Shown piece after piece: positions 1 through 18,353 of a stretch of DNA of 33,060 bases. Position 1 is the first letter of the stretch, and each line of letters starts with the position of its first letter. Position numbers and translations under genes: made by a program. Source of the stretch: Desulfatibacillum sp. (lineage in GTDB: Bacteria; Desulfobacterota; Desulfobacteria; Desulfobacterales; Desulfatibacillaceae); assembly GCA_016342355.1 (NCBI GenBank), contig JAEINP010000051.1, positions 1-33,060 on the forward strand, written 5' to 3'. The notes beneath the pieces are model-generated. The model saw nothing but the letters and a program-made list of their open reading frames with translations, made no database searches and had not been told where the DNA came from.

Positions 1-852
1 CATTGATATAATGGAGGTATCGTTTTGGTGCTCATGGATCACCTCGTGAAGGTCTTGATTTTTCATGATCTTTTTTTTGATTGCGTCACAAATTCTCTTC
101 TCATCCTTCGTTTGTATTGTATCGCACAAATACCCACTACCTACAAGATAGTAATCAGTCAAGGAGCTTTCAAGGTCTGACTTTGCCCTTACAATATACT
201 TCCTTAGCTCCGAATCAATTGGGACGCTTTTTGATATCCCCTTAAAACTTTTATTGATTTTCTCTCGTTTTTTTGGCTTGACTTCTATCTCTATACCGTC
301 AATTTCACTTTCTTCTAAGGTTAAGAATCCCATGATGGTTTTTCCAAGTGTGTGTTTAGGGCTAACTTCCAATTTTGTTTTTCCAATAAAAGGCATTTTC
401 AGCACTTGGCGAGTGGTTGCTTCCGTGGCGATTGCAACAGAAACAAACTCCCATCCATTAAATTTCCACCTGTTCAGTATTCCGTTTAAGAACGTTACAA
501 ACGCATCATTTTTAGGACCATGTAAGGTAGATCCAATGCCATAAAAATACTCAGAAAAATTGATATAGGCTGCAAAGCCAAGCCTTTCGTCTGTATTTAG
601 TTTTTTATATATATCATCCTGAGATAAACCGCCTTTATGTATAGCCTTAATGATCTCACTGGATTTTGTCACTACAAACATATAAACAGGAGGTACAACA
701 TGAAATAAGAAAAGATTTTCGTCCTTGAATTGGAATGAACTATATAGGGTTTCATCTTTGGCTTTTAAAAAACATTTCAAAACCGGCGTCATATCGACAT
801 GATATTTTTTGCTCTCGTTGGTAAGATAATATTTATAGTAATTAATCTTCAT
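1..852 (-). CDS. RexA-like phage exclusion protein (3' end off window)
   Basis: An open frame starts with ATG at 852 and runs uninterrupted to the window edge (284 codons, no stop seen). A GGGAG lies just upstream of the ATG. By memory comparison it resembles phage lambda RexA (279 aa) along most of its length. Shared blocks in order are DERLGF at residues 88-93 (lambda DESLGF), GI..T..GP followed by FLNG at 105-124 (lambda GF..T.FGP, then FLIG), PFIGKTKLEV at 154-163 (lambda HFIGRTTVKV), EIEVKPK at 188-194 (lambda DIVIKPK), and RAK with LTDYYL..G.L at 222-242 (lambda RAK, LTEHYL..G.L). Lambda RexA is a cytoplasmic DNA-binding protein that works with the membrane protein RexB to exclude superinfecting phages. 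Lysine-rich and AT-rich, it differs in composition from the core genes. Any RexB partner would lie left of the window. The resemblance is seen in the sequence; the exclusion role is inferred. Confidence 0.72.
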   Translation of the reverse strand, partial: MKINYYKYYLTNESKKYHVDMTPVLKCFLKAKDETLYSSFQFKDENLFLFHVVPPVYMFVVTKSSEIIKAIHKGGLSQDDIYKKLNTDERLGFAAYINFSEYFYGIGSTLHGPKNDAFVTFLNGILNRWKFNGWEFVSVAIATEATTRQVLKMPFIGKTKLEVSPKHTLGKTIMGFLTLEESEIDGIEIEVKPKKREKINKSFKGISKSVPIDSELRKYIVRAKSDLESSLTDYYLVGSGYLCDTIQTKDEKRICDAIKKKIMKNQDLHEVIHEHQNDTSIISM

Positions 853-947
853 AGTTCGCTCCCATTTTGATATTAGGACGGTACAATCCGTATTTATCGT
901 TTTACTTCTGCCATGTGGTCATGGAATTGAGAAAAAATCATATTACA

Positions 948-1583
948 CTAAATACCATCCCATATAGCATAAATATTTTCACAAGCCGCTTCAATTTCCC
1001 TTAACATACGCGCTCCCGCGCGGGCGCCTCGGTGCTCTTGTCCCCTTGAGACATCAAAATAGAGTACCGAAGTACTGGTTAGGCCCATACCCGCCTCCAA
1101 TTGGGCCTGAAACATTGCTTGACTGATAATCTTGACCGTCTGCTCTTCTGGTTCATCTTTGCTAAAATCTAACAAAATGACTTTTTCTCTTTTTCGTTCC
1201 ATCACATGCAAATCTGGACTGACAGTAATAAAAACACCTGCATAAGCCACTCGAAGAGAGATTCTGTCTAATATGGAAAAATCCCTGCCTGAAAAAAAGC
1301 GAGCATATTTTTTTATAGCACGAGCGTTGTGTTTCAGGCGGACCGCCCTTTGCTGAACTGCCCCCTGAGACAAGCCCTGCAATTGGCTGGCCTTCTTGGT
1401 CAACCACTCCACATCTCGACCATCCTTATGGAACTCAGTAATGTATTTTTTCGCGTCCCTGTAATAGGCGGCTTGAGCTTGACCTTCAGGATTAGGATAT
1501 TTGTAATCCTTCAAAATTTTCCTCTGTTTCACCGCGCCAGAAGTCATGTACTTGGCCAAACCTTTAAGACTGATTTTGGGCAT
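948..1583 (-). CDS. Hypothetical 211-aa protein, partner of the RexA-like gene; possible PD-(D/E)XK-type fold
   Basis: ATG at 1583 is preceded by a strong AGGAGG. It lies 95 nt upstream of the RexA-like gene on the same strand, so the two probably share a transcript. I do not recognise the family. The N-terminal half (1-105) is basic and helical. The C-terminal half alternates predicted strands and helices: a strand ending in SPD (122-124), a strand ending DFSK (139-142), a long helix (147-163), then the strand VLYFDVSRG (173-181). A PD pair, then an acidic-x-x-Lys strand, then a helix and strand is compatible with a PD-(D/E)XK nuclease-like fold, although the spacing inside DFSK is not canonical. 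There are no membrane segments, so it is not RexB. It may be an effector, regulator or antitoxin of a Rex-like module; which of these is unknown. Confidence 0.6.
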   Translation of the reverse strand: MPKISLKGLAKYMTSGAVKQRKILKDYKYPNPEGQAQAAYYRDAKKYITEFHKDGRDVEWLTKKASQLQGLSQGAVQQRAVRLKHNARAIKKYARFFSGRDFSILDRISLRVAYAGVFITVSPDLHVMERKREKVILLDFSKDEPEEQTVKIISQAMFQAQLEAGMGLTSTSVLYFDVSRGQEHRGARAGARMLREIEAACENIYAIWDGI

Positions 1584-1706
1584 ACTATGCCTCCTTTTCA
1601 GAAGTTAATTTGGCACTATAAAGCCTGGGTTCCCGGGTTTTCATAACGATGAAAAAGCAACGTACTGATATAATGGCATTTTTAAAAAACAAGAAGAGAA
1701 AAGTCA

Positions 1707-1731
1707 TCGTTACAATTATAATATGTAACGA
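1707..1731. promoter_or_regulatory. 25-bp inverted repeat overlapping a minus-strand -10 box
   Basis: TCGTTACA at 1707-1714 is matched by its exact reverse complement TGTAACGA at 1724-1731 across a 9-bp AT spacer. On the minus strand the centre contains a perfect TATAAT (1715-1720). That is about 130 nt upstream of the 211-aa gene and oriented toward it. No good -35 hexamer is visible at 16-18 bp. A palindrome centred on the -10 is what a repressor-controlled promoter would look like, but this is inference. Confidence 0.45.
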
Positions 1732-1792
1732 GGCTTGATTTTTCATCTTTTCATTTTATATTAGTTCGTTACAGACAACCTCGTTACATATT
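1720..1792. repeat. 14-bp inverted repeat with internal TCGTTACA copy
   Basis: A 14-bp segment at 1720-1733 (AATATGTAACGAGG) recurs as an exact inverted copy at 1779-1792, with 45 bp between. A further TCGTTACA sits inside at 1766-1773, and a related CGTTACA at 1992-1998. Together with the palindrome at 1707-1731 this makes four exact copies of the 8-mer in 85 bp. This could be a multi-site operator or a recombination site; the sequence alone does not decide. Confidence 0.5.
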
Positions 1793-1896
1793 TCCGGGAG
1801 TCCAGGATAAAGATGTGAACCCTTTTCAAAACAGATATTGTCAATGACGCTCTGAAACGATTTGGACAGCCCCTTGATCCCGTCGTTGAATTCCAT
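1756..1896 (-). CDS. Possible 46-aa small ORF or gene remnant
   Basis: An ATG at 1896 with a GGGGGAG ribosome binding site about 3 nt upstream opens a 46-codon frame. The frame can be extended upstream without a convincing start. The product begins MEFNDGIKGLSKSFQ and then INDICFEKG-like helical sequence. Its first residues faintly recall the N-termini of some type I restriction R-subunit-like proteins (MEF.D.I..L), so it could be a decayed fragment. Its last codons contain two TGTAACGA repeats, each encoding Cys-Asn-Glu. It precedes the 211-aa gene on the same strand. Existence as a real gene is uncertain. Confidence 0.28.
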   Translation of the reverse strand: MEFNDGIKGLSKSFQSVIDNICFEKGSHLYPGLPEICNEVVCNELI

Positions 1897-2031
1897 GGCT
1901 CCCCCTAAAAAACGAGCAAAAAAGCATGAGTTCCGGTGAATATCACAGACAGTGTAAAAACATTGACTTTGAATTTGTCGACTTTTATATACGTTACACC
2001 TAATTGTCAAGAAAATAAAATGTTTAGGCAC

Positions 2032-2403
2032 TATTTTGATATAAGAAATTGGGGCATGAAAGCGTAATCACATTGGAGTATACCACAAAGTGGCAGTTGC
2101 ATAGCAGTTATGAAGCACCGAATAAGGTGCAGTTCTGGCGGGCTGATGAGGGCATGAAAAGACGTTTAATCGACTGACAGGGGCTTGATAAGAGGTTTCC
2201 ATCTTAAGCAGGGAGAACCATATGCACTCACAAACAAAACCAATGGATCTGCAAGGGTTATCTCAGCCAAGTGACCCCGGCGAGTGCCTCTAAACAATGG
2301 AAGATTTTTCATCGCCTCATCAGTATGCGATCTGAGGCGATGAGACAGCTTTTGAAAATGAACTCCAGACCGCAACCCGCCCCAGATGGCGCCATTCTTA
2401 TGG
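2032..2403. other. Intergenic stretch without a supported gene
   Basis: About 370 nt between the left minus-strand group and the toxin-antitoxin promoter. Short frames occur on both strands: a minus-strand frame at 2166-2375, and a 23-codon plus-strand frame from the ATG at 2222 after GGGAGA. None has recognisable similarity. The only clear structure is the inverted repeat at 2309-2343. It may be decayed accessory DNA. Confidence 0.4.
2309..2343. repeat. 11-bp perfect inverted repeat (hairpin)
   Basis: TCATCGCCTCA at 2309-2319 pairs exactly with TGAGGCGATGA at 2333-2343, with a 13-nt loop between. No T-run follows on either strand, so a simple intrinsic terminator is not supported. It lies 60 bp upstream of the toxin-antitoxin promoter and could be a regulator site or a mobile-element scar. 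Confidence 0.4.
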
Positions 2404-2431
2404 TTGACAAGGTATCAATTGATACTATAAT
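2404..2431 (+). promoter_or_regulatory. Sigma70-type promoter with embedded palindromic operator
   Basis: The -35 is TTGACA (2404-2409) and the -10 is TATAAT (2426-2431), both perfect consensus with a 16-bp spacer. The spacer contains the perfect 14-bp palindrome GTATCAATTGATAC (2412-2425). A strong promoter blocked by a dimeric repressor is typical of type II toxin-antitoxin operons, and the antitoxin encoded downstream has a helix-turn-helix. The toxin's nominal ATG (2432) directly abuts the -10, so the transcript would start inside the annotated frame. Confidence 0.7.
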
Positions 2432-2800
2432 ATGATTAACAGACCTTCAAACAAAGAACTCCAAAAAAGATTGACGGAGGCTAAAGCGGCCATTTCGCAG
2501 GGCCGAAAAGCAGTTGAAAACCTCTTTTCCTTGATTGAGGATCTTAATGACTTTGGCTATTTGATGAAAGATTTCACTCAACTGCTCCCCGATATTTTGG
2601 AGGAAGTGAAACCTCGGCACTATGCTGGACAACGGCCTCCGGCAAGCGCATATGCAAGTCAAATCAGGGGAAAAGAACTGTGGGCGTTTTCATGGAAATC
2701 CAAGATCGTAGGATGCGAGGTTTATTTCAAATTCGCCTTTAAAGACGATATGTTGTGGATCGTGTCTTTCCATAAAAGCCGACCCCGCTCAGGAGAATGA
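2432..2800 (+). CDS. MqsR-like mRNA interferase toxin
   Basis: 122 codons from the ATG at 2432. The C-terminal third carries the MqsR/RelE-fold signature: GCEVYFKFAF (94-103), then WIVSFHKSR (109-117), which parallels E. coli MqsR VTGQVYLKI then LIVSFKEK, including the conserved Tyr (98) and C-terminal Lys (115). The N-terminal segment with DLNDFGYLMKDF (37-48) also matches the MqsR layout. MqsR family toxins cleave mRNA, and the family norm is about 100 residues. The annotated ATG lies immediately after the -10 box, so the true start is probably downstream, for example TTG at 2471 (109 residues), although no strong Shine-Dalgarno is seen there. Its stop overlaps the end of the antitoxin leader. 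Catalytic activity is inferred. Confidence 0.66.
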   Translation: MINRPSNKELQKRLTEAKAAISQGRKAVENLFSLIEDLNDFGYLMKDFTQLLPDILEEVKPRHYAGQRPPASAYASQIRGKELWAFSWKSKIVGCEVYFKFAFKDDMLWIVSFHKSRPRSGE

Positions 2801-2802
2801 CA

Positions 2803-3615
2803 ATGAAGCATCTTGAATGCCCAAATGGGCATGGCATCATGTCCGTTATGGATATTGAACGCACAATGAGTTTTCGGGGAGAGGATATCACTGTATCCGT
2901 GCCCGTAAGCAAATGCTCCGTATGTGGCATAGAGGCTGGCACTGTAGAGCAAGTGGCACACGCTCAAAGAGTTGTCCATGACGCCTACCGTAAAAAGAAA
3001 GAGCTTCTCACAAGTGAAGATATTCAACGAAAAAGAAAGAGACTTGGTTGGACACAGAATACCCTTGCCCACAAGGCAAAAGTAGGAGTAGCCAGCGTCA
3101 AACGCTGGGAATTGGGGCAGATTCAATCAGAGTCAATGGACGCCCTTTTACGCGGCGTTTTCAATGAAACTGATGATGCTGAATCTTTTGAAGGAAACCG
3201 TCCGTTTTCATTGGCGCGTACAAAATTGGTATTCAGGACGTTTGAGTCGGTCCTAAAACGAAAACTGCTCTTTTCTGGAGACAAAGGGCTGAAAACCACA
3301 AAATACATCTGGTACGCAGACATGAAGGCATATCAGGAGTTGGGGCAGGGCATGACAGGGGCGGTTTACGCCCATTTACCTTGGGGGCCTCAATTCGACA
3401 ATTACCCTCAATTATTTGAAATGATCCACAAAGCGGATGAAACCCTCGCGCCTCCGCTTTCTCCAGAAGAAAAACGGATTATCAACCAAATCGCAAACAA
3501 ATTTCGCACAAATAAAAGCGTGTTCGACGCAGCTCATAGAGAGCCTGCTTGGAAGAACAGAAAAGATGGGGAGAAGATTCCATATTCCACTTATGAAAGG
3601 TTGACGCAGATCTGA
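2803..3615 (+). CDS. MqsA-like antitoxin: zinc finger, Xre HTH and Panacea (DUF4065) domain
   Basis: Start ATG at 2803 is chosen because AGGAG (2791-2795) is 7 nt upstream; the ATG at 2797 is too close to it. The product is 270 aa. Residues 1-45 form a YgiT/MqsA-type zinc site with C6, H10, C38 and C41. E. coli MqsA uses four Cys, so the first pair here is a C-x3-H variant. Residues 72-117 are an Xre helix-turn-helix (LGWTQNTLAHKAKV, SVKRWELG). Residues about 139-270 match the Panacea/SocA-like domain (DUF4065): KLLFSGD, YADMKAYQELG, MTGAVYAHLPWGPQFDNYP and LSPEEKRII. Panacea is known as a promiscuous antitoxin domain that neutralises diverse toxins. The protein probably binds the palindrome at 2412-2425 and represses its own operon. 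Confidence 0.8.
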   Translation: MKHLECPNGHGIMSVMDIERTMSFRGEDITVSVPVSKCSVCGIEAGTVEQVAHAQRVVHDAYRKKKELLTSEDIQRKRKRLGWTQNTLAHKAKVGVASVKRWELGQIQSESMDALLRGVFNETDDAESFEGNRPFSLARTKLVFRTFESVLKRKLLFSGDKGLKTTKYIWYADMKAYQELGQGMTGAVYAHLPWGPQFDNYPQLFEMIHKADETLAPPLSPEEKRIINQIANKFRTNKSVFDAAHREPAWKNRKDGEKIPYSTYERLTQI

Positions 3616-3805
3616 TTTCCACCCACTCTTTTTAAAAAATGACTGCTTTCGGCAAGAAGAACTTGCGCGCAATGTGCGCACTGACGCATCGAAATCCTTC
3701 ACGCCTCTAAAAGTATCCCCCCATCACCACATACCAGGCTTCTATACGAGTCAATGCCCTTGGCTTGGCCGAATAACTGCCCGGTTTGACGGCGTTTCAT
3801 TTAGG

Positions 3806-5105: not shown

Positions 5106-7871
5106 TTACCTTTGCCTGAGGGAATTGATAAAGCAATCGTCCTCGTCCGGGGGGGCCTGACCTTCCACAATGACAAAGGACGTGAATCCCTGTACCCCCC
5201 TGACTGTGAGAAGGTTTTTTTCCGTATCCACCGCAGTGTCCATGGGCGTGTAGTCCCCGCCCTGTTCCGGGGCGGAATAAACCGTGAGCTTGGATTCGTC
5301 CAGGCCCTGGATTTCCTTGTCCAGGTAGTTAAAAATCAGGGTTGCAGCAAAATTTGTCCGATCCGTGGTGATCAGCCATTGGACGTTGGCCACTTTGGCC
5401 GTATCCTCCATATCCACGTTGTTTTTGTTGCGAACGAGCACCACCCGGGTGAGGCTGTTTGCATCGCCTGTTTCAAAATCGACATAGGCCCTGGCCGTAC
5501 CGTAATCCTCGGCCAGGGGGTTTCCCCGATGGTCTGTCCCAAACACAGTGGCGGAAATGGGCGGACGGGCGCCGGAAACGCCAAAGGCCTCGCCCGCGCA
5601 GGTGCGGGTGTTCAGGGGGCCGTCAGCGCGGTAAGCGCCGAGTATGGCTTCCGGGACGCCGTTGGCGTTGATGTCGCCCATGGCAAGGGCGCCGCCGTCG
5701 GCCAGGCGGTCGTCATATCCCGGGCCGTAGATGATTACATCCTGGCCACCGGTGAAGATATCCACAGTGGACGGAAGGTTCGGGCCTCCGTGGATCACGT
5801 AGGCTTCGCCGCAATTGCGTCTGCCTTCCCCGGGGCCGTCAGCCAGAGCGGACGCCGCCACAAGGTCGTTTATACCGTCGCCGTTCATATCGCCCAGGAC
5901 CATTGTCGCGCTGTAACCCAGTTTGTCGCCGTAGGTGGCCCCGTAGATAATGAGGTCCTGCTGATTATCATCCAGGTCCACTATGGAAGGAGGATCGGAC
6001 GAGCCGAAAACCACGGCGACCTCCCCGCAAGACCTGCGGGAGTTATTGGGGCCGCTGGCATAGGACGAGGCCATGGCGATGTCGTCTGTTCCGTCTCCGG
6101 TAAGGTCTCCCAACGCAAGACCCTGGTATTTGGAGAGGTAGTCGCCGTTGTCAGCGCCGTAAATGACCATGTCCGATTGATCCTCGTCCAGGTCCCGGAC
6201 GCCGGAAAGATTTTCCGCCCCGAAAATCACATGGACCTCGCCGCAGTTGGAACGGCTGTTTGACGGGCCGCTGGCGTAAGGAGCGCCCAGGGCCAGGTCG
6301 TCCATGCCGTCGCCGTTCACATCCCCCACGGCCATGGCTTTGTACCGGGTGAGGGAATCGCCGGAATCCGCGCCGTAAACCCGGAGGGTTGGGGGCGTGA
6401 ATGCCAGATCCCGGGAGGGGAAAGCGTTGTCGGCCCCGGCTAACAGATAGGCCTCGCCGCAGGCGTTGCGGGAGTCACCCGGTCCGTCTCCATAGGGTGC
6501 GCCCACGATGACGTCCAGGATGCCGTCCGCGTTCAGGTCGCCGGTCAGGAGGCAGCCGTCGCCGCCCAATTGGTCGTAGGATGTGGCGCCGTACACAATG
6601 CCGTTCCATTGGCCCTGCGCCAGGTCCAGGGTTCCGGATAGGGTGGTTGATCCTTTGATGAAGTAGACTTCGCCGCAGTCGTCCCGGGCGTTTGACGGGC
6701 CGTCCGCGCCCGGAGCCGCCAGGATGAGGTCGGGGATTTGGTCGTTGTCCAGGTCTCCAAGGGTCATGGCGCCGTCGCGGCCCAGGTTGTCGCCGCAGTT
6801 GGCGCCGTAGATGATAAGGTCTGCGCCGCCATTGTTCAGGTCCACGGTTCCGGAAAGGCTGCGGGAACCGAACAGGACATAGACTTCTCCGGCGTCGCAA
6901 CGGTTTTCCTGGGGTCCGTCGGCTTGATACGCGCCCATTATCAGGTCCTGGATGCGGTCTCCGTTAAGATCGCCCACCACCACGGACCGGCCCTTGCCCA
7001 GGGCGTCGTCCCGGGTGGCGCCGTAGACGGTCAGGTCCGGGGTGTGGCCTTCAATGCCGGCCACGTCCCGGATGCCTTCCAGGCCAGTATGACCGAAGTA
7101 CACATATATCTCCCCTGCTTCGTCCCGTTGGCTCTGGGGGCCGTCCGCGTTGCAGGCCGTGAGGATGAGATCCGGGATATGGTCTCCGTTGACGTCTCCG
7201 GCCAGGATGCCTTGTTCGGCAGTCATTTTATCCTGGGGATCCCGGCCAAAAACATGGAGGTTTCCGCCGTCCTGTAGGTCCTTGAGGGCGTCTCCCACTG
7301 GGTCCAGGGGAGTGGTTCCCAGGCGGACGGCTCCGTATTCCTGGACATCCGGGCTCCAGTTCCAGTCTTTTTGGGCTCGGGTGGCAACTGTACCGGTGAT
7401 AACGTCGGCGGTTTCCAACCAGTTGAACCGGCTTTCGGGGGCCACGTAGGAAAGATGAACCCAGTAAGTTTGACTTTCCTCCAGGACAGTGTTTCCGGAA
7501 AACTGAATAGTGTACACTTGGGCCTCGGGGCCAGCCAGGACATATTGGGATTCCAGAAGATCGCCGGGCAGGCCGTTGTCGTCCTCCCGGATGTTGATTT
7601 CCATGTCTCCGGGTTCCCTGTAATTGACCAGGGGCAGGGCTGCGTAGTCCAGGTAATGGTCGGTGCCTGTGGCAGTCACGGTGATGGGTATAGACCGTTC
7701 CAGTTTCAGGATGCAGCCAAAGGGACCCAAGACGCAGCCCACTCCCAGGCCTGAGTTCGGCACATAGGAGTCGCCTTCGCCAAAGTTATCGTAGATGATT
7801 TCCCCGCTGGCGGTGGAAGCCAGGCAGACGCAAAACAGGACAGCCAAAACAGCTTTCTTGATACGTTTCAT
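5106..7871 (-). CDS. Secreted FG-GAP (integrin-alpha-like) repeat protein
   Basis: 921 aa from the ATG at 7871, preceded by GGAGGGGG; the longer frame's extra 30 residues look like leader sequence. Residues 1-23 are a signal peptide. Residues about 25-190 resemble an extracellular beta-sandwich of the choice-of-anchor R type (IREDDNGLPGDLL, QTYWVHLSY). From about 224 to 740, eight FG-GAP blades recur about every 72 residues, each with a Ca2+-binding loop such as GDVNGDHIPDL, GDLNGDRIQDL and GDMNGDGINDL, followed by a GPxxxRxxxGE segment. A C-terminal beta domain follows, and the last residues are DEDDCFINSLRQR. The likely role is an extracellular adhesin-like or scaffold beta-propeller; the ligand is unknown. 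The tail looks like a shortened CFI-box. Confidence 0.82.
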   Translation of the reverse strand: MKRIKKAVLAVLFCVCLASTASGEIIYDNFGEGDSYVPNSGLGVGCVLGPFGCILKLERSIPITVTATGTDHYLDYAALPLVNYREPGDMEINIREDDNGLPGDLLESQYVLAGPEAQVYTIQFSGNTVLEESQTYWVHLSYVAPESRFNWLETADVITGTVATRAQKDWNWSPDVQEYGAVRLGTTPLDPVGDALKDLQDGGNLHVFGRDPQDKMTAEQGILAGDVNGDHIPDLILTACNADGPQSQRDEAGEIYVYFGHTGLEGIRDVAGIEGHTPDLTVYGATRDDALGKGRSVVVGDLNGDRIQDLIMGAYQADGPQENRCDAGEVYVLFGSRSLSGTVDLNNGGADLIIYGANCGDNLGRDGAMTLGDLDNDQIPDLILAAPGADGPSNARDDCGEVYFIKGSTTLSGTLDLAQGQWNGIVYGATSYDQLGGDGCLLTGDLNADGILDVIVGAPYGDGPGDSRNACGEAYLLAGADNAFPSRDLAFTPPTLRVYGADSGDSLTRYKAMAVGDVNGDGMDDLALGAPYASGPSNSRSNCGEVHVIFGAENLSGVRDLDEDQSDMVIYGADNGDYLSKYQGLALGDLTGDGTDDIAMASSYASGPNNSRRSCGEVAVVFGSSDPPSIVDLDDNQQDLIIYGATYGDKLGYSATMVLGDMNGDGINDLVAASALADGPGEGRRNCGEAYVIHGGPNLPSTVDIFTGGQDVIIYGPGYDDRLADGGALAMGDINANGVPEAILGAYRADGPLNTRTCAGEAFGVSGARPPISATVFGTDHRGNPLAEDYGTARAYVDFETGDANSLTRVVLVRNKNNVDMEDTAKVANVQWLITTDRTNFAATLIFNYLDKEIQGLDESKLTVYSAPEQGGDYTPMDTAVDTEKNLLTVRGVQGFTSFVIVEGQAPPDEDDCFINSLRQR

Positions 7872-7995
7872 AAGTGGTCCCCCTCCCGGCGCAAAACAAG
7901 GCATTATGATGGGAAAAACAGGAAGTACAAGATAAAGCGTCCAAGGTCGGATAATATACAACCACTTTATCTTACAGCTATTTTATACCATAGGG

Positions 7996-8016
7996 GCGGC
8001 CTGTTCGCAAGGCCGC
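7996..8016. repeat. GC-rich hairpin in divergent intergenic region
   Basis: GCGGCCT (7996-8002) pairs with AGGCCGC (8010-8016) across the loop GTTCGCA. A T6 run starts 6 nt after it on the plus strand, but no plus-strand gene precedes it, so its role is unclear. It sits between the divergent FG-GAP and phosphoesterase genes. Confidence 0.35.
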
Positions 8017-8115
8017 AGTGGGTTTTTTACGGATTGGCCGGTGGGATTGCCTGTTTGGGAATGGGGGATGGGTTGGCGGCCTGAAGATTTCCACGTTTTA
8101 AATCACATAATTATT

Positions 8116-8145
8116 TTGACAAAATGATTTTCCTATGAATATATT
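8116..8145 (+). promoter_or_regulatory. Candidate promoter for the metallophosphoesterase gene
   Basis: TTGACA (8116-8121) is followed after 18 bp by TATATT (8140-8145). It would give a leader of about 130 nt before the ATG at 8281. The -35 is perfect consensus and the spacer is one base longer than ideal. Confidence 0.5.
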
Positions 8146-8280
8146 TTGGCATACACGGGTTAAAAAATTTGATGATGCGGCCAGGAATCTGCTGTCCTCT
8201 TGTATCCCGATTATTGCAGACCGCCCTTCTCCTGGTTTTGCCGCATGTGTGGTCATCCTTTAGAAATTGGAGGTGTATTC

Positions 8281-9513
8281 ATGCAAATCAGCATTGTGTC
8301 CGACCTGCACCTGGGCGACCCCATGTGCGCCCTGTACCCCGAAACACCGAAAAAATTCGCACCCAAACTCAAGGCCTTTGAAAAGGCCGTGGGAACAGGG
8401 AACGACTACCTGATCCTGCTGGGAGACATCTTTGACTTTTCCATACGCAGCTATGCAGAGGTGTATGCGGAAGGCAAAAAGTTTTTCAGCCATGTGCAGG
8501 AAAAGCAACTGGCCAAGGAGATTTTATATGTGCCGGGAAATCATGATTTTTCGTTCTGGCACTGGCTGGAGCATGATCTCAACATAGTCAAGCCCATCCA
8601 GAACGGGGAGGATCCCAGGCCTTTCAGGCGGTCTGTACCCGGATTCTTCGATCTGAGAAAAGCCCCCAAATATAGTGAACTGGAGTTGGTTGGTCCAGAC
8701 AAGCCGTATGGGGACATCTTTTTGAAGCATCTTGCCCCCCAGGATTTGAAAATATGCGTGGCCTATCCCAACGTATATCTGTACACAGGACAGGAAACCC
8801 TGCTGCTAACCCACGGTCATTACCTGGAGGCGTTTTGGGGAGTGGTGAGCGAATACGGCCCCAAGATTTTTGGCGGGGACATGGCCGGTGATGAACTGAA
8901 TTTAAAGGAACTGGTGGGGGTGAATTTTCCCAACAACCAGTTGGCCTCGTCCGGGGTTGGGCAGGCCGAGCCTCTGACCGCGCTTATCAGGACGCTTCAG
9001 CGCAATATCAAGGACGGGGACCTGAATGCTCTGGAAAGGTATGTGAACAATCTGGCGGATAAGGTGGTTGACCCCCTCATCACCGGAAATGTTTTAAAGG
9101 AATGGATTACGGACAAGATCATTAATATTTTGAAGGACAAATTGTTGAACTTTATCAGGGAACAGAAAACAGCCCGGGTTAAAAACGAAACAGAATGCGG
9201 CGATTCGCCCTTTATGTCCGAGCAGGGAACCAAGGACCGTCTGGAAACCTATTACAAGGCCAGCCAGTGGGAAATAGAGGACGTGGGAGAGCAGTTGGGG
9301 ATCAAACTTTCCCCCCCCAGGCGTTGCATCATCGGCCACACCCATGATCCTATCCCGTGGGGGGCCATGGACCAAAAAAACAAGTACAGGCTGGCGGGAA
9401 ATCCGGTGGTTCTGTTTAATACCGGCGGCTGGCTATACAGGAAAGACGGCAGTTTTTGCGGCGCCCAGGTTTTTAAATGGGACGGAACACAAATGTCGTC
9501 CGTGGGGGTGTGA
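8281..9513 (+). CDS. Calcineurin-like metallophosphoesterase
   Basis: 410 aa from the ATG at 8281, with GGAGGTG 7-8 nt upstream. All motifs of the dinuclear metallophosphoesterase family are present: SDLHLGD (D8, H10), GDIFDF near 48, GNHDFSF near 86, THGHY near 177 and GHTHDP near 351. Bacterial members hydrolyse phosphoesters, including UDP-diacylglucosamine in lipid A synthesis (LpxH), but this protein is much longer than LpxH. It carries a large helical insert (about 200-330) between the fourth and fifth motifs. The substrate is unknown. It appears cytoplasmic: there is no signal peptide or membrane segment. Confidence 0.82.
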   Translation: MQISIVSDLHLGDPMCALYPETPKKFAPKLKAFEKAVGTGNDYLILLGDIFDFSIRSYAEVYAEGKKFFSHVQEKQLAKEILYVPGNHDFSFWHWLEHDLNIVKPIQNGEDPRPFRRSVPGFFDLRKAPKYSELELVGPDKPYGDIFLKHLAPQDLKICVAYPNVYLYTGQETLLLTHGHYLEAFWGVVSEYGPKIFGGDMAGDELNLKELVGVNFPNNQLASSGVGQAEPLTALIRTLQRNIKDGDLNALERYVNNLADKVVDPLITGNVLKEWITDKIINILKDKLLNFIREQKTARVKNETECGDSPFMSEQGTKDRLETYYKASQWEIEDVGEQLGIKLSPPRRCIIGHTHDPIPWGAMDQKNKYRLAGNPVVLFNTGGWLYRKDGSFCGAQVFKWDGTQMSSVGV

Positions 9514-14084: not shown

Positions 14085-14195
14085 TTTCCCCCTCCCGAAG
14101 ACTATTGGCTTGGAAATACGCGGACCGTTACCAGTGGAACCACTTTTTGAAATGTTTTTAGCACAGGAATTGCCGTTTATCCAGGCTGTTTTCCA

Positions 14196-14224
14196 TTGTG
14201 AAGACCGATCCCATGGAGTATGCT
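14196..14224 (+). promoter_or_regulatory. Weak candidate promoter for the 140-aa membrane protein
   Basis: TTGTGA (14196-14201), a 17-bp spacer, then TATGCT (14219-14224). Each hexamer matches consensus at four of six positions. It lies 40 nt upstream of the ATG at 14264. Confidence 0.3.
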
Positions 14225-14263
14225 ATGAGAATATTTACATAAACGCTGACAACGGACAAAAAA

Positions 14264-14686
14264 ATGGAACAAATTGTAATACCTGCGAACAAGAAATACC
14301 GAAACCGCATGTTAAGGTACCTGCTGCTGGGATTATTCGCGGGGGGTCTTGCTGCATTCCTAGGGATGCCAGCTTTGTTGGAAAATGCCGGGGCTTCCAT
14401 TGACAGAACCAGGATAATTTTCCATGTTGCATTTGCAGGACTTATGATTCTGTTTTTGACCCTTTTCCCCCTTGGACTGTATTTGCTGGCCGTAGGCAAG
14501 TTGACCATAGCGACCAGGCGATTCCCTCCGCCGGGCATCAGGGTGATCCGGGACACTGTCCTCCTTAAAGAGGAAGAGGCTGTCAGGAAGGGCCGGATCC
14601 TTTTTTTTTCTTCCTTTGTTCTCATGGGCATGGGGGTGTGGGGGATTTACCAAGTGTATCAACTTGTCCGGGTTTTTACGCTTTGA
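14264..14686 (+). CDS. Small integral membrane protein of unknown function
   Basis: 140 aa from the ATG at 14264. Three hydrophobic segments are visible: about 16-38, 52-77 and 112-134. A basic loop (80-110) lies between the second and third, and a positively charged N-terminus is present. No known motif was found. The gene is divergent from the TMTC-like gene and precedes the sulfur cluster by 161 nt, so it may be monocistronic. Confidence 0.6.
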   Translation: MEQIVIPANKKYRNRMLRYLLLGLFAGGLAAFLGMPALLENAGASIDRTRIIFHVAFAGLMILFLTLFPLGLYLLAVGKLTIATRRFPPPGIRVIRDTVLLKEEEAVRKGRILFFSSFVLMGMGVWGIYQVYQLVRVFTL

Positions 14687-16380: not shown

Positions 16381-17694
16381 ATGGCAAAGACGTTTTACAT
16401 CAACACTCTGGGATGCAAGGTGAACCAGTACGAGTCGGACAATCTGTCATGCATTCTGGAGAATGCAGGGCTCAAGCGGGTTTCCGACAAGGAAAAGGCC
16501 GACGTGGTGGTGGTGAACACTTGCACGGTCACCCACAAGGCCTCCACGCAGTCCAGACAGGCTCTCAGGCAAGCTATCAAAGCCCACCAAGGGGCCTTGG
16601 TGCTGGCCACCGGTTGTTACGCCCAAAGCGAGCCTGAGGCGCTCAAGGGAATCAAAGGGGTTTCCTTTGTGGTGGACAACACCCAAAGGCATCTTATTCC
16701 CCGGATCATTGAAAAGGAGAGTCCCCGCAAGACCGCAGAAAGTCTTACCGGGGAGATTCGTTCGTTTCAGGAGTTTTTGACGCCTGATATTCCCGTTCCA
16801 GGGGCCAGGAGCAGACCGTTTCTGAAGATCCAGGACGGTTGCAACGCATTTTGCACTTATTGCATTGTTCCGTACACAAGGGGCCCCAGCCGCAGTATGC
16901 CCTGGGCCTCGGCAATTGGCCATGTGACCAGTCTGATTAGTCAGGGTTTTGGCGAGGTGGTGCTGACTGGCATTCACTTAGGTTATTATGGTCAGGACCT
17001 GGAGCCCAAGACGGATTTGGTCAGCCTTTTGGCGGAATTGGACACCCGGTTGGACAAGGGGAGAATCCGTTTAAGCTCCATTGAACCCAAGGAGGTCAGC
17101 CAGGGCTTATTGGATTTGATGGCCCGATCCGAGCGCCTGTGCCCTCATCTGCATCTGCCTTTGCAAAGCGGAGACACGGGCATTTTGCAAAGGATGAACA
17201 GGCCGTACACGGCGGAATATTTTTCGGACCTGGTTCATGATGTGAGGCGGGCCTTGCCCGAGGCAGGCATAGGGGTGGACGTATTGGTGGGTTTTCCCGG
17301 GGAGACTGATGAAACCTTTCGCAACACCCTCACCCTGATTGAACGGCTGCCGGTTTCCTATTTGCATGTGTTTCCCTATTCCCAACGGGAGGGGACGCCT
17401 GCGGCCAAATACCCCAATCAGGTGGCGCCAGATGTTTTGGCCAAGCGGACCAAGGTATTGAGGGAACTGGGAGGTTTGAAGCGGCTGGCCTTCCATGCCG
17501 GGACCATGGGTAAAACATTGGAGGTGTGCGTGGAAGGCAGGAAAGACGAAAAGACGGGCCTACATAAAGGGGTGGCTCGGAATTATGTACCTGTGTTGTT
17601 TTCTGCACCTTTTCCGCCGGTCAGATCCAGTCTGGTAAGGGTGAAGGTGGAAAAGCTGACTCCCAAGGGCCGGGTGACAGGCAGTTTGGCATAA
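16381..17694 (+). CDS. mtaB: tRNA (N6-threonylcarbamoyladenosine 2-methylthio) transferase MtaB
   Basis: 437 aa from the ATG at 16381. The N-terminal UPF0004 domain holds C12 (NTLGCKVNQYES), C48 (NTCTV) and C79 (TGCYAQ), ligands of the auxiliary cluster. C154, C158 and C161 (CNAFCTYC) form the radical-SAM cluster motif. A C-terminal TRAM-like stretch (from about 375) ends the protein. The NTLGCKVNQ start is characteristic of MtaB rather than MiaB or RimO. The enzyme inserts a methylthio group at C2 of t6A37 in ANN-decoding tRNAs. No strong Shine-Dalgarno precedes it, so it may be translationally coupled to mnmA. It ends at the terminator at 17693-17726. Confidence 0.9.
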   Translation: MAKTFYINTLGCKVNQYESDNLSCILENAGLKRVSDKEKADVVVVNTCTVTHKASTQSRQALRQAIKAHQGALVLATGCYAQSEPEALKGIKGVSFVVDNTQRHLIPRIIEKESPRKTAESLTGEIRSFQEFLTPDIPVPGARSRPFLKIQDGCNAFCTYCIVPYTRGPSRSMPWASAIGHVTSLISQGFGEVVLTGIHLGYYGQDLEPKTDLVSLLAELDTRLDKGRIRLSSIEPKEVSQGLLDLMARSERLCPHLHLPLQSGDTGILQRMNRPYTAEYFSDLVHDVRRALPEAGIGVDVLVGFPGETDETFRNTLTLIERLPVSYLHVFPYSQREGTPAAKYPNQVAPDVLAKRTKVLRELGGLKRLAFHAGTMGKTLEVCVEGRKDEKTGLHKGVARNYVPVLFSAPFPPVRSSLVRVKVEKLTPKGRVTGSLA

Positions 17695-17726
17695 AAAAAG
17701 GCGGCTTTTTGCAAAGCCGCCTTTTT
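17693..17726. terminator. Bidirectional Rho-independent terminator
   Basis: GGCGGCTTT (17700-17708) and AAAGCCGCC (17713-17721) form a perfect 9-bp stem with a 4-nt loop, flanked by an A7 run on the left and a T5 run on the right. It can stop both mtaB from the left and the ribosomal/rpoA/rplQ transcript from the right. Confidence 0.93.
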
Positions 17727-17747
17727 CTGTATTGCGTCAAAGCCGGT

Positions 17748-18353
17748 TTATTCTTTGGCTTTTTCCTCTTCTTCGGCAGGAGCTTCCTCTGCTGGGGCTT
17801 CTTCTACAGCCGGTGCTTCTTCCTTGACAGGAGCAGCCTCGACGGTTTCGGGAGCTTTTTCAGCAACCGGAGCATCCTCGGCTACTGGCTTGGGAGCGGC
17901 TTCCTTTTTGGCGGCTTTGGCTTCTTCAGCCTTTGCTTTGCCAAAAGAGGTGAAGCGGCTGAGCCAGGAGCCACTGGGTCCCTTTTCAGGGGCGTCGTCC
18001 TGTCCCACAAAGTCCACGAGGGAGATGGGGGCGGCGTCGCCTCTACGGAATCCAATTTTGGTAATGCGGGTGTAACCGCCGTTGTATTCGCCAAAGCGTT
18101 CATTGGCGGCTTCAAACAGTCTATGCACCACATTTTTATTGCGAATGACAGCCAGGGCTTGGCGGCGTGCGTGGAGATCACCCCTTTTAGCCAGGGTGAT
18201 CATTTGATCCGCCCAGCGCCGTAGTTCTTTAGCCTTGGCATCGGTCGTCCTCACTTGCCCATATTCAAAAAGGGAGGTAACCATGTTTCGGAACATGGCC
18301 TTTCTGTGGGAAGACGTACGATTTAATTTAACTCCACTTTTTTGATGTCTCAT
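17748..18353 (-). CDS. rplQ: 50S ribosomal protein L17 with long Ala/Glu/Pro-rich tail
   Basis: 201 aa; ATG at 18353 overlaps the rpoA stop (ATGA). Residues 1-117 are a normal L17 core ([20 protein letters not shown], then [12 protein letters not shown], then [18 protein letters not shown]), the protein that lines the large-subunit exit-tunnel surface. L17 usually ends near 115-130 residues. Here about 80 further residues form a low-complexity acidic tail rich in Ala, Glu, Pro, Val and Lys (APxxEEAP-type repeats). The frame is continuous and ends 22 nt before the terminator stem, so the tail looks genuine. It is the last gene of the cluster. Confidence 0.95.

Follow-up and report, generated by a model that had tools for sequence, protein, structure and literature searches.

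The window analysed here, a stretch of 33,060 nucleotides that opens contig JAEINP010000051.1 of a Desulfatibacillum assembly (GCA_016342355.1), begins with a minus-strand reading frame that recalls the lambda exclusion gene rexA, which raises the question of whether a true rexA is present and with which partner it would act. The frame starts at an ATG at 852, runs uninterrupted for 284 codons and exits at base 1. Because base 1 of the window is also base 1 of the contig, rexA is cut, and the next gene lies outside the assembled sequence. The relevant features are as follows:

1..852, minus strand: rexA homologue, 5' 284 codons, with its 3' end lost at the contig end; identified by profile, sequence and fold matches.
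1..35, minus strand: predicted start of an overlapping rexB, with an ATG at 35-33, in the +1 frame of rexA and open to the contig end.
37..45, minus strand: putative ribosome-binding site GAGGTGATC, an exact match, one base before the ATG at 35-33.
853..947, no strand: gap of 95 bases between ORF211 and rexA, in which a scan reported no consensus promoter or terminator.
948..1583, minus strand: ORF211, an orphan frame of 211 aa that shares the strand of rexA and lies upstream of it; a partner role finds no support.

The frame at 1-852 encodes a true RexA homologue, an assignment that is firm, since the matches are far beyond chance. The Pfam RexA model (PF15969) matches the product at 8.7e-48, scoring 163 bits where the curated cut-off is 25 and covering most of the model (residues 1-229, profile positions 1-233 of 235). 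The RexA model of PADLOC matches at 1.6e-50, the RexA-like family of PHROG at 1.8e-24, and the solved lambda RexA (8twq) at 4.5e-15 by sequence comparison; in the search of phage records, lambda RexA is 26.8% identical over 86% of the query. Pfam returned RexA alone for this product, up to an E-value of 1, and no RdgC family match. A genome search finds the 1-852 frame to be the sole RexA match in the host. The original prediction of a RexA homologue is thus borne out, and the predicted fold described below agrees with it. Its remark that the length is comparable to that of lambda RexA stands as arithmetic (284 codons against 279 aa), but the window frame is cut, and ten uncut relatives are 308-319 aa long.

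The AlphaFold model of the window protein (mean pLDDT 85.8) has the two-domain RexA fold, as predicted. Foldseek, which the original prediction had named as a check against lambda RexA, matches the model to 8twq at 9.4e-13, and VIA-align gives a Z of 17.5 over 265 residues at an rmsd of 15.6, a value indicating that the two domains are differently placed in the window model. RdgC (Z 6.6) and the inner-kinetochore chains score far lower than 8twq, at Z about 5 to 6.7, where by the tool's own warning values below 8 may reflect merely a common arrangement. The same distant fold kin, RdgC and kinetochore proteins, are reported for lambda RexA in the available text of PMC11077077. Phage ctylc9 supplies both the top RexA-like match and the runner-up RexB-like match in a viral fold library; at 12-17% identity, and with an E-value of 0.097 for the RexB-like one, they are taken as a hint only.

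The surroundings of rexA are not those of a visible lambdoid prophage, as had been claimed. A Pfam scan of 25 window frames, chosen as likely genes from open reading frame lists, identified no phage-type family other than RexA; four of the 25 (948-1583, 2432-2800, 14158-14631 and 17709-18224) have no significant match. A PHROG search covered the first four window genes, and several regulator families of that collection match the regulator at 2797-3615. No tRNA or Rfam matches occur in the window. From 3.9 kb the Pfam matches include an ABC-type binding protein, FG-GAP and TPR proteins, a tRNA_Me_trans protein, a radical-SAM protein, RpoA, SecY and the ribosomal proteins L15, L6, L5, L14, S3, L2, L4 and L3. 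The GC content is 36% in rexA, 42% in positions 1-3800 and 53.5% in the remainder of the window; together with the adjoining core genes, this drop places rexA in a short foreign-looking stretch beside the core chromosome. A prophage may lie beyond the contig end. The lambdoid immunity operon, cI-rexA-rexB, does not describe the locus: the gene upstream of rexA has no repressor family match in Pfam, PADLOC or PHROG, and the protein falls off the lambdoid side of the tree described below. The host genome contains dsrA above the curated cut-off and is therefore probably that of a sulfate reducer, which fits the expectation of a deltaproteobacterial-type host.

Three further observations concern this region. 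A toxin-antitoxin-like pair occupies 2432-3615 on the plus strand: a 122-aa frame, whose MqsR match is very weak (0.13), overlaps the regulator, in which Pfam finds a SocA/Panacea domain above cut-off, an HTH domain and, below cut-off, MqsA. The first ATG of the 122-aa frame is directly preceded by a perfect sigma-70 consensus (TTGACA, 16 nt, TATAAT) whose last base is 2431, so translation may begin further in. At 5106-7961 on the minus strand lies a 951-aa FG-GAP repeat protein, which has a 67% identical relative in a same-genus genome (G001); in each genome an ABC-type binding protein adjoins it. G001 was also used to seek the missing left flank, but there the ABC-type binding protein is followed by a gene whose match in the present assembly falls mid-contig, within the 230-kb C104; gene order is thus not conserved, and the comparison did not recover the flank. 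When the 1200 bases at the contig end were used as a query, no overlapping contig was identified in the host genome at an E-value of 0.001.

The gene upstream of rexA had been put forward as an unrelated partner, and this part of the prediction finds no support. ORF211 reaches only 0.15 in Pfam, 0.021 in PADLOC and 0.046 in PHROG as its best family matches, and no relatives turned up for it in searches of plasmids, phages, viral contigs and 290 further genomes of the order, nor among 69 loci from other sources. As a RexA partner it was rejected for this lack of relatives in every set searched.

Relatives of rexA itself are more informative. The window protein matches 19 phage records (best 28.6% identity over 87% of the query) and 17 plasmids; the nine best of these, all from Acinetobacter and 8 to 31 kb in size, are 28-32% identical over 98%. 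Profile scans led by a motif recovered 20 loci from 30 candidates in species genomes, 11 of which were set aside as described below, and confirmed 30 of 32 candidates in viral contigs, the best being 37% identical; a single motif was used, so relatives without it are missed. A single-sequence scan of the viral contigs confirmed none of its 27 candidates. Closer to the host, none of eight other genomes of the family contains RexA, and two of 395 genomes in a sample of the phylum do, the host included.

A tree was built from 21 RexA proteins, with near copies omitted and L005 not included; it is unrooted and has several long branches. It divides RexA into two sides, a lambdoid one and that of the window, split by a branch with 100/100 support. 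RexA is 308-319 aa long in the ten uncut members of the window's side and 276-283 aa on the lambdoid side. The 11 rows labelled as having a rexA/rexB overlap all fall on one side of this branch; the window row owes its label to its start site, and L003 to its rexB start, despite a broken rexB. The window pairs with G341, from the same phylum, at 96/89, where the output warns of a join of two long branches.

Several records were set aside. Eleven species-genome records (L019-L029; for example Streptomyces, Neobacillus and Bradyrhizobium) contain lambda DNA itself, 99.85-99.96% identical over the compared stretch, which is most likely contamination; they were left out of the counts and the tree. 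Near copies of lambda were also left out (L030, from Citrobacter youngae, at 99.9%; L018; and several of L050-L059, lambda-like in part), as were further near copies (L036, L038, L060 and more). The Xenorhabdus locus L031 was left out because its rexA is frame-broken, and L060 looks like the same contig: at 1900-3400, a frame-broken lambdoid-side rexA of Xenorhabdus budapestensis is followed by an open rexB-like frame, read in L031. Two loci on the window's side were left out of the set of complete loci, Methylovulum L017 for an assembly gap in rexA and L003 for an insertion in rexB.

On the window's side of the tree, rexB overlaps rexA. In all ten complete loci (L004, L005, L006, L012, L013, L032, L033, L034, L035 and L063), the two genes share 77-116 nt at the 3' end of rexA, where rexB is read in the +1 frame, and the first in-frame ATG of rexB falls at rexA alignment columns 289-294; earlier non-ATG starts exist in some of these relatives. 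Five of the ten come from Acinetobacter or an Acinetobacter-like phage contig, and the ten are thus not independent events. In L017, where rexA can be read in two parts, the coordinates again give the +1 relation, and L003 has the same rexB start as its kin. On the lambdoid side, the annotated rexB begins past the rexA stop in all four records read (lambda, yong1, ST101-KPC2phi6.1 and Enterobacter p16773_5). Starts of rexB on that side were set by alignment to lambda RexB; the longest frame would give a slight overlap in L016 too, so the choice of start matters there.

The overlapping partner is, by its sequence, a RexB homologue. The partners in the ten loci and L017 are 151-162 aa long and have 3-5 hydrophobic segments by a simple hydropathy count. 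In a set that includes L017 and omits L004, the PADLOC RexB model matches ten of ten, and the Pfam RexB model three of ten at an E-value of 1 (best 2.1e-7). A profile of the partners matches a lambdoid RexB profile at 97.3% (E 2.1e-11, 132 columns). AlphaFold predicts an all-helical structure for the L032 partner (pLDDT 89.2). Compared with the viral fold library, the partner has its best match at an E-value of 0.063 (probability 1.00), and none of the 50 matches listed is named RexB. Past the overlap, 119 codons compared among the plasmid copies L004, L005 and L006 give a dN of 0.011-0.094 against a dS of 0.80-0.90, from which it follows that the partner is a real gene; more distant pairs are saturated for dN/dS. 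Inside the overlap, the rexB frame of the three plasmid copies has no excess of silent changes (synonymous/nonsynonymous codons 1/2, 6/5 and 5/5). In the PLSDB gene tables, which are incomplete by their own description, rexB is absent from L004 and L006 and shortened in L005.

The window is cut just past the place where rexB begins in these relatives. The ATG at 35-33 is at rexA alignment column 289, the start column also used by L034 and L035; it is one codon past a stop and is the sole in-frame start after that stop, and the predicted rexB then continues for 11 full codons, ATG included, before the contig ends. The putative ribosome-binding site GAGGTGATC, which we take to match the anti-Shine-Dalgarno sequence, occurs twice in the window against 0.19 expected by shuffles, for a 9-mer that was picked after viewing the sequence. 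The likely partner would lie downstream of rexA, overlapping it and cut off by the contig end. A profile of the relatives' RexB proteins found nothing in the host genome, even at an E-value of 5, and the Pfam RexB model was silent there as well, as it was for its own controls. The lineage profile matches G341 at 1.5e-44, partly by construction because the G341 protein is a row of the profile. Its silence in the host genome has several possible causes: the missing part of rexB may be unassembled or absent altogether, or else too short or too divergent to be recognised.

Taken together, membership in RexA is firm and a RexAB system is likely; the reading that we consider probable is that the frame is the rexA of an abortive-infection system of the RexAB type, belonging to a second lineage in which translation of rexB is coupled to that of rexA. 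In such a system, the start of rexB would be embedded, in the +1 frame, near the end of the rexA coding sequence, and the overlap with its internal ribosome-binding-type site may couple the two translations and fix the ratio of the products; it would be a natural way to hold the RexA:RexB ratio. RexA, as a two-domain DNA-binding dimer, would sense phage-derived DNA or protein-DNA complexes and activate the small membrane protein RexB, which has about four helices. RexB, perhaps by channel action, would then damage or depolarise the membrane, and growth would halt before phage release, which would amount to phage defence.

The silence of the RexB profile may also be read to mean that RexA works here without RexB, as a non-specific DNA-binding protein like RdgC or as a regulator, with no exclusion system. 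The resemblance of the model to RdgC at Z 6.6 would be consistent with this, and RexA without RexB outside prophages is in print (PMC11077077, in the portion available). However, a start with a ribosome-binding-type site is present just before the cut, and all ten complete relatives have rexB, so this reading is unlikely. It is slightly less probable still that the locus is a decayed piece of a prophage or island whose rexB has been disrupted, for instance through an insertion element situated where the contig stops. Repeats are a common place for contigs to end, the stretch at 1-3.8 kb is AT-rich (42% GC), and L003 provides a precedent, since its rexB frame is broken by an IS256-type insertion; that A. 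pittii plasmid (L003, 6939-8647) has an apparently split rexB and a nearly whole rexA, and thus rexB can be lost while rexA persists. Against decay, the window rexA is open across all 284 codons with its conserved blocks kept, and the contig-end query matched nothing elsewhere in the genome. Reversed roles, with the RexA-like protein as effector and the membrane protein restraining it, are described for gp30/gp31 of mycobacteriophage Butters (PMC12894663, as far as its available text goes), but are very improbable here, as nothing in the sequence favours them and four of the five systems listed in that text, lambda included, are taken to have RexB as effector.

The lineage on the window's side of the tree occurs in varied settings. 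Members are found on Acinetobacter plasmids; on a 43.8-kb, probably chromosomal contig of A. tianfuensis, where rexAB lies between a TetR regulator and a peroxidase; on a 427-kb Methylovulum contig near a glycosyltransferase, a Gp49-type protein and a HipA-type protein; and on a 3.9-kb MAG contig (L012) with a Glyco_hydro_108 protein, a DNA methylase and a BsaWI-type restriction enzyme. The viral contigs contain a CI repressor and tail sheath (L032), an integrase (L033), baseplate J and an integrase (L034), or DnaB and an S24 repressor (L035), and the G341 stretch contains two integrases and an AAA_25 protein. With such varied plasmid, bacterial and viral contexts, the lineage looks mobile and not tied to the lambdoid immunity region.

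In L063, two copies of a 154-159 aa protein without a Pfam match (7941-8405, minus strand, and 17251-17730, plus strand; 86% identical) flank, in opposite orientation, a stretch with rexAB, AAA_25 and two integrases, and may mark the ends of an island. A divergent trio of genes adjoins rexA in three of four Acinetobacter plasmids (L003 3753-5757, L004 3743-5747, L006 2854-4858); in L003, Pfam matches one to PP2C (2.8e-6) and the other two weakly to AbiEii (0.09) and MarR (0.0043). In L005 an IS3-type element stands in place of the trio, which is possibly a defence cassette.

More broadly, we lean, with some reserve, towards a second RexAB lineage in which rexB lies out of frame inside the 3' end of rexA and is translationally coupled to it, which travels with plasmids, prophages and integrase-bearing islands in hosts ranging from Acinetobacter to sulfate reducers, and some of whose members may be among the reported orphan RexA proteins (published loci include those of Shewanella khirikhana and Salinisphaera sp. 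NP40), their rexB having been dropped by gene callers. In the available text of PMC9090908, RexAB is reported as mostly prophage-borne and confined to Proteobacteria. The original prediction that a Rex-like exclusion gene is wider than the lambdoid phages holds for RexA, which in this window lies outside any visible lambdoid prophage, but is not in itself new: as far as the consulted portions of PMC11077077, PMC6426606 (CarolAnn and Sbash) and PMC12894663 (P. putida) go, RexA outside prophages and beyond lambda is already published. The overlapping arrangement does appear to be new; no description of it, and no defence test of a second-lineage member, was found in the literature searched, in which subscription journals are thinly covered. 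The overlapping exclusion genes of phage Fc02 are other genes beside a repressor, and in the available text of PMC9936078 Rex appears once, in the reference list. The recovery of three of ten partners by the Pfam RexB model, and of all ten by PADLOC, suggests that RexAB is undercounted in surveys, because the DefenseFinder models for the system group that includes RexAB are taken from Pfam or COG (PMC9090908, same portion). Lambda RexAB was the first Abi system tied to anti-phage defence, and the overlapping lineage, members of which also sit on small plasmids, supplies compact pairs amenable to tests in laboratory strains with no lambda switch alongside, which would separate defence from a role in lysis-lysogeny.

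Among known systems, lambda RexA/RexB (PF15969/PF15968; 8TWQ) resembles the window locus in its near full-length RexA profile match, its predicted fold and the RexB homologue that partners RexA in the window's kin. It differs in sequence, in a RexA shorter than that of the window's kin and in a rexB that starts after rexA instead of within it as in those kin, and no CI-type repressor was recognised upstream of the window's rexA. RdgC, CENP-L/IML3 and CENP-N/CHL4 share a distant fold similarity with the window protein, but their biology is different, and the window protein has no Pfam match to RdgC.

Functional parallels are found in recently described pairs, of which a January 2026 paper counts five systems in its available text (PMC12894663). 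RexABpp of P. putida (PP_5643/PP_5644) likewise consists of a RexA-like DNA-binding protein and a four-helix membrane effector, both needed for defence, and is prophage-borne; it is likened to the window locus by description (PMC12894663). The actinophage pairs Sbash gp30/31 and CarolAnn gp44/43 also combine a RexA-like protein with a four-helix membrane protein (PMC6426606), and Toast gp42 is a further actinophage RexA-like protein; their RexA-like parts, of 337-372 aa, are in phages and are again likened by description (PMC11077077). In the P. putida, CarolAnn and Sbash systems neither gene suffices without the other, and the membrane protein acts as effector (PMC12894663); in these and in lambda RexA is taken as sensor and RexB as membrane effector (PMC12894663, PMC6426606). 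The RexA:RexB ratio matters to the lambda pair and to that of P. putida (PMC12894663, PMC6426606), and the RexA proteins of lambda and three actinophages bind DNA non-specifically and dimerise (PMC11077077); all of these statements follow the parts of the papers that were available. The overlapping pairs (Acinetobacter plasmids, A. tianfuensis, a Desulfurellales MAG, Methylovulum, IMG/VR contigs and G341) share with the window the side of the tree, for those included in it, the range of start columns and the frame; they lie on plasmids, bacterial contigs, prophages and an integrase-bearing stretch, and differ from the window in that its rexB is present as a predicted start alone.
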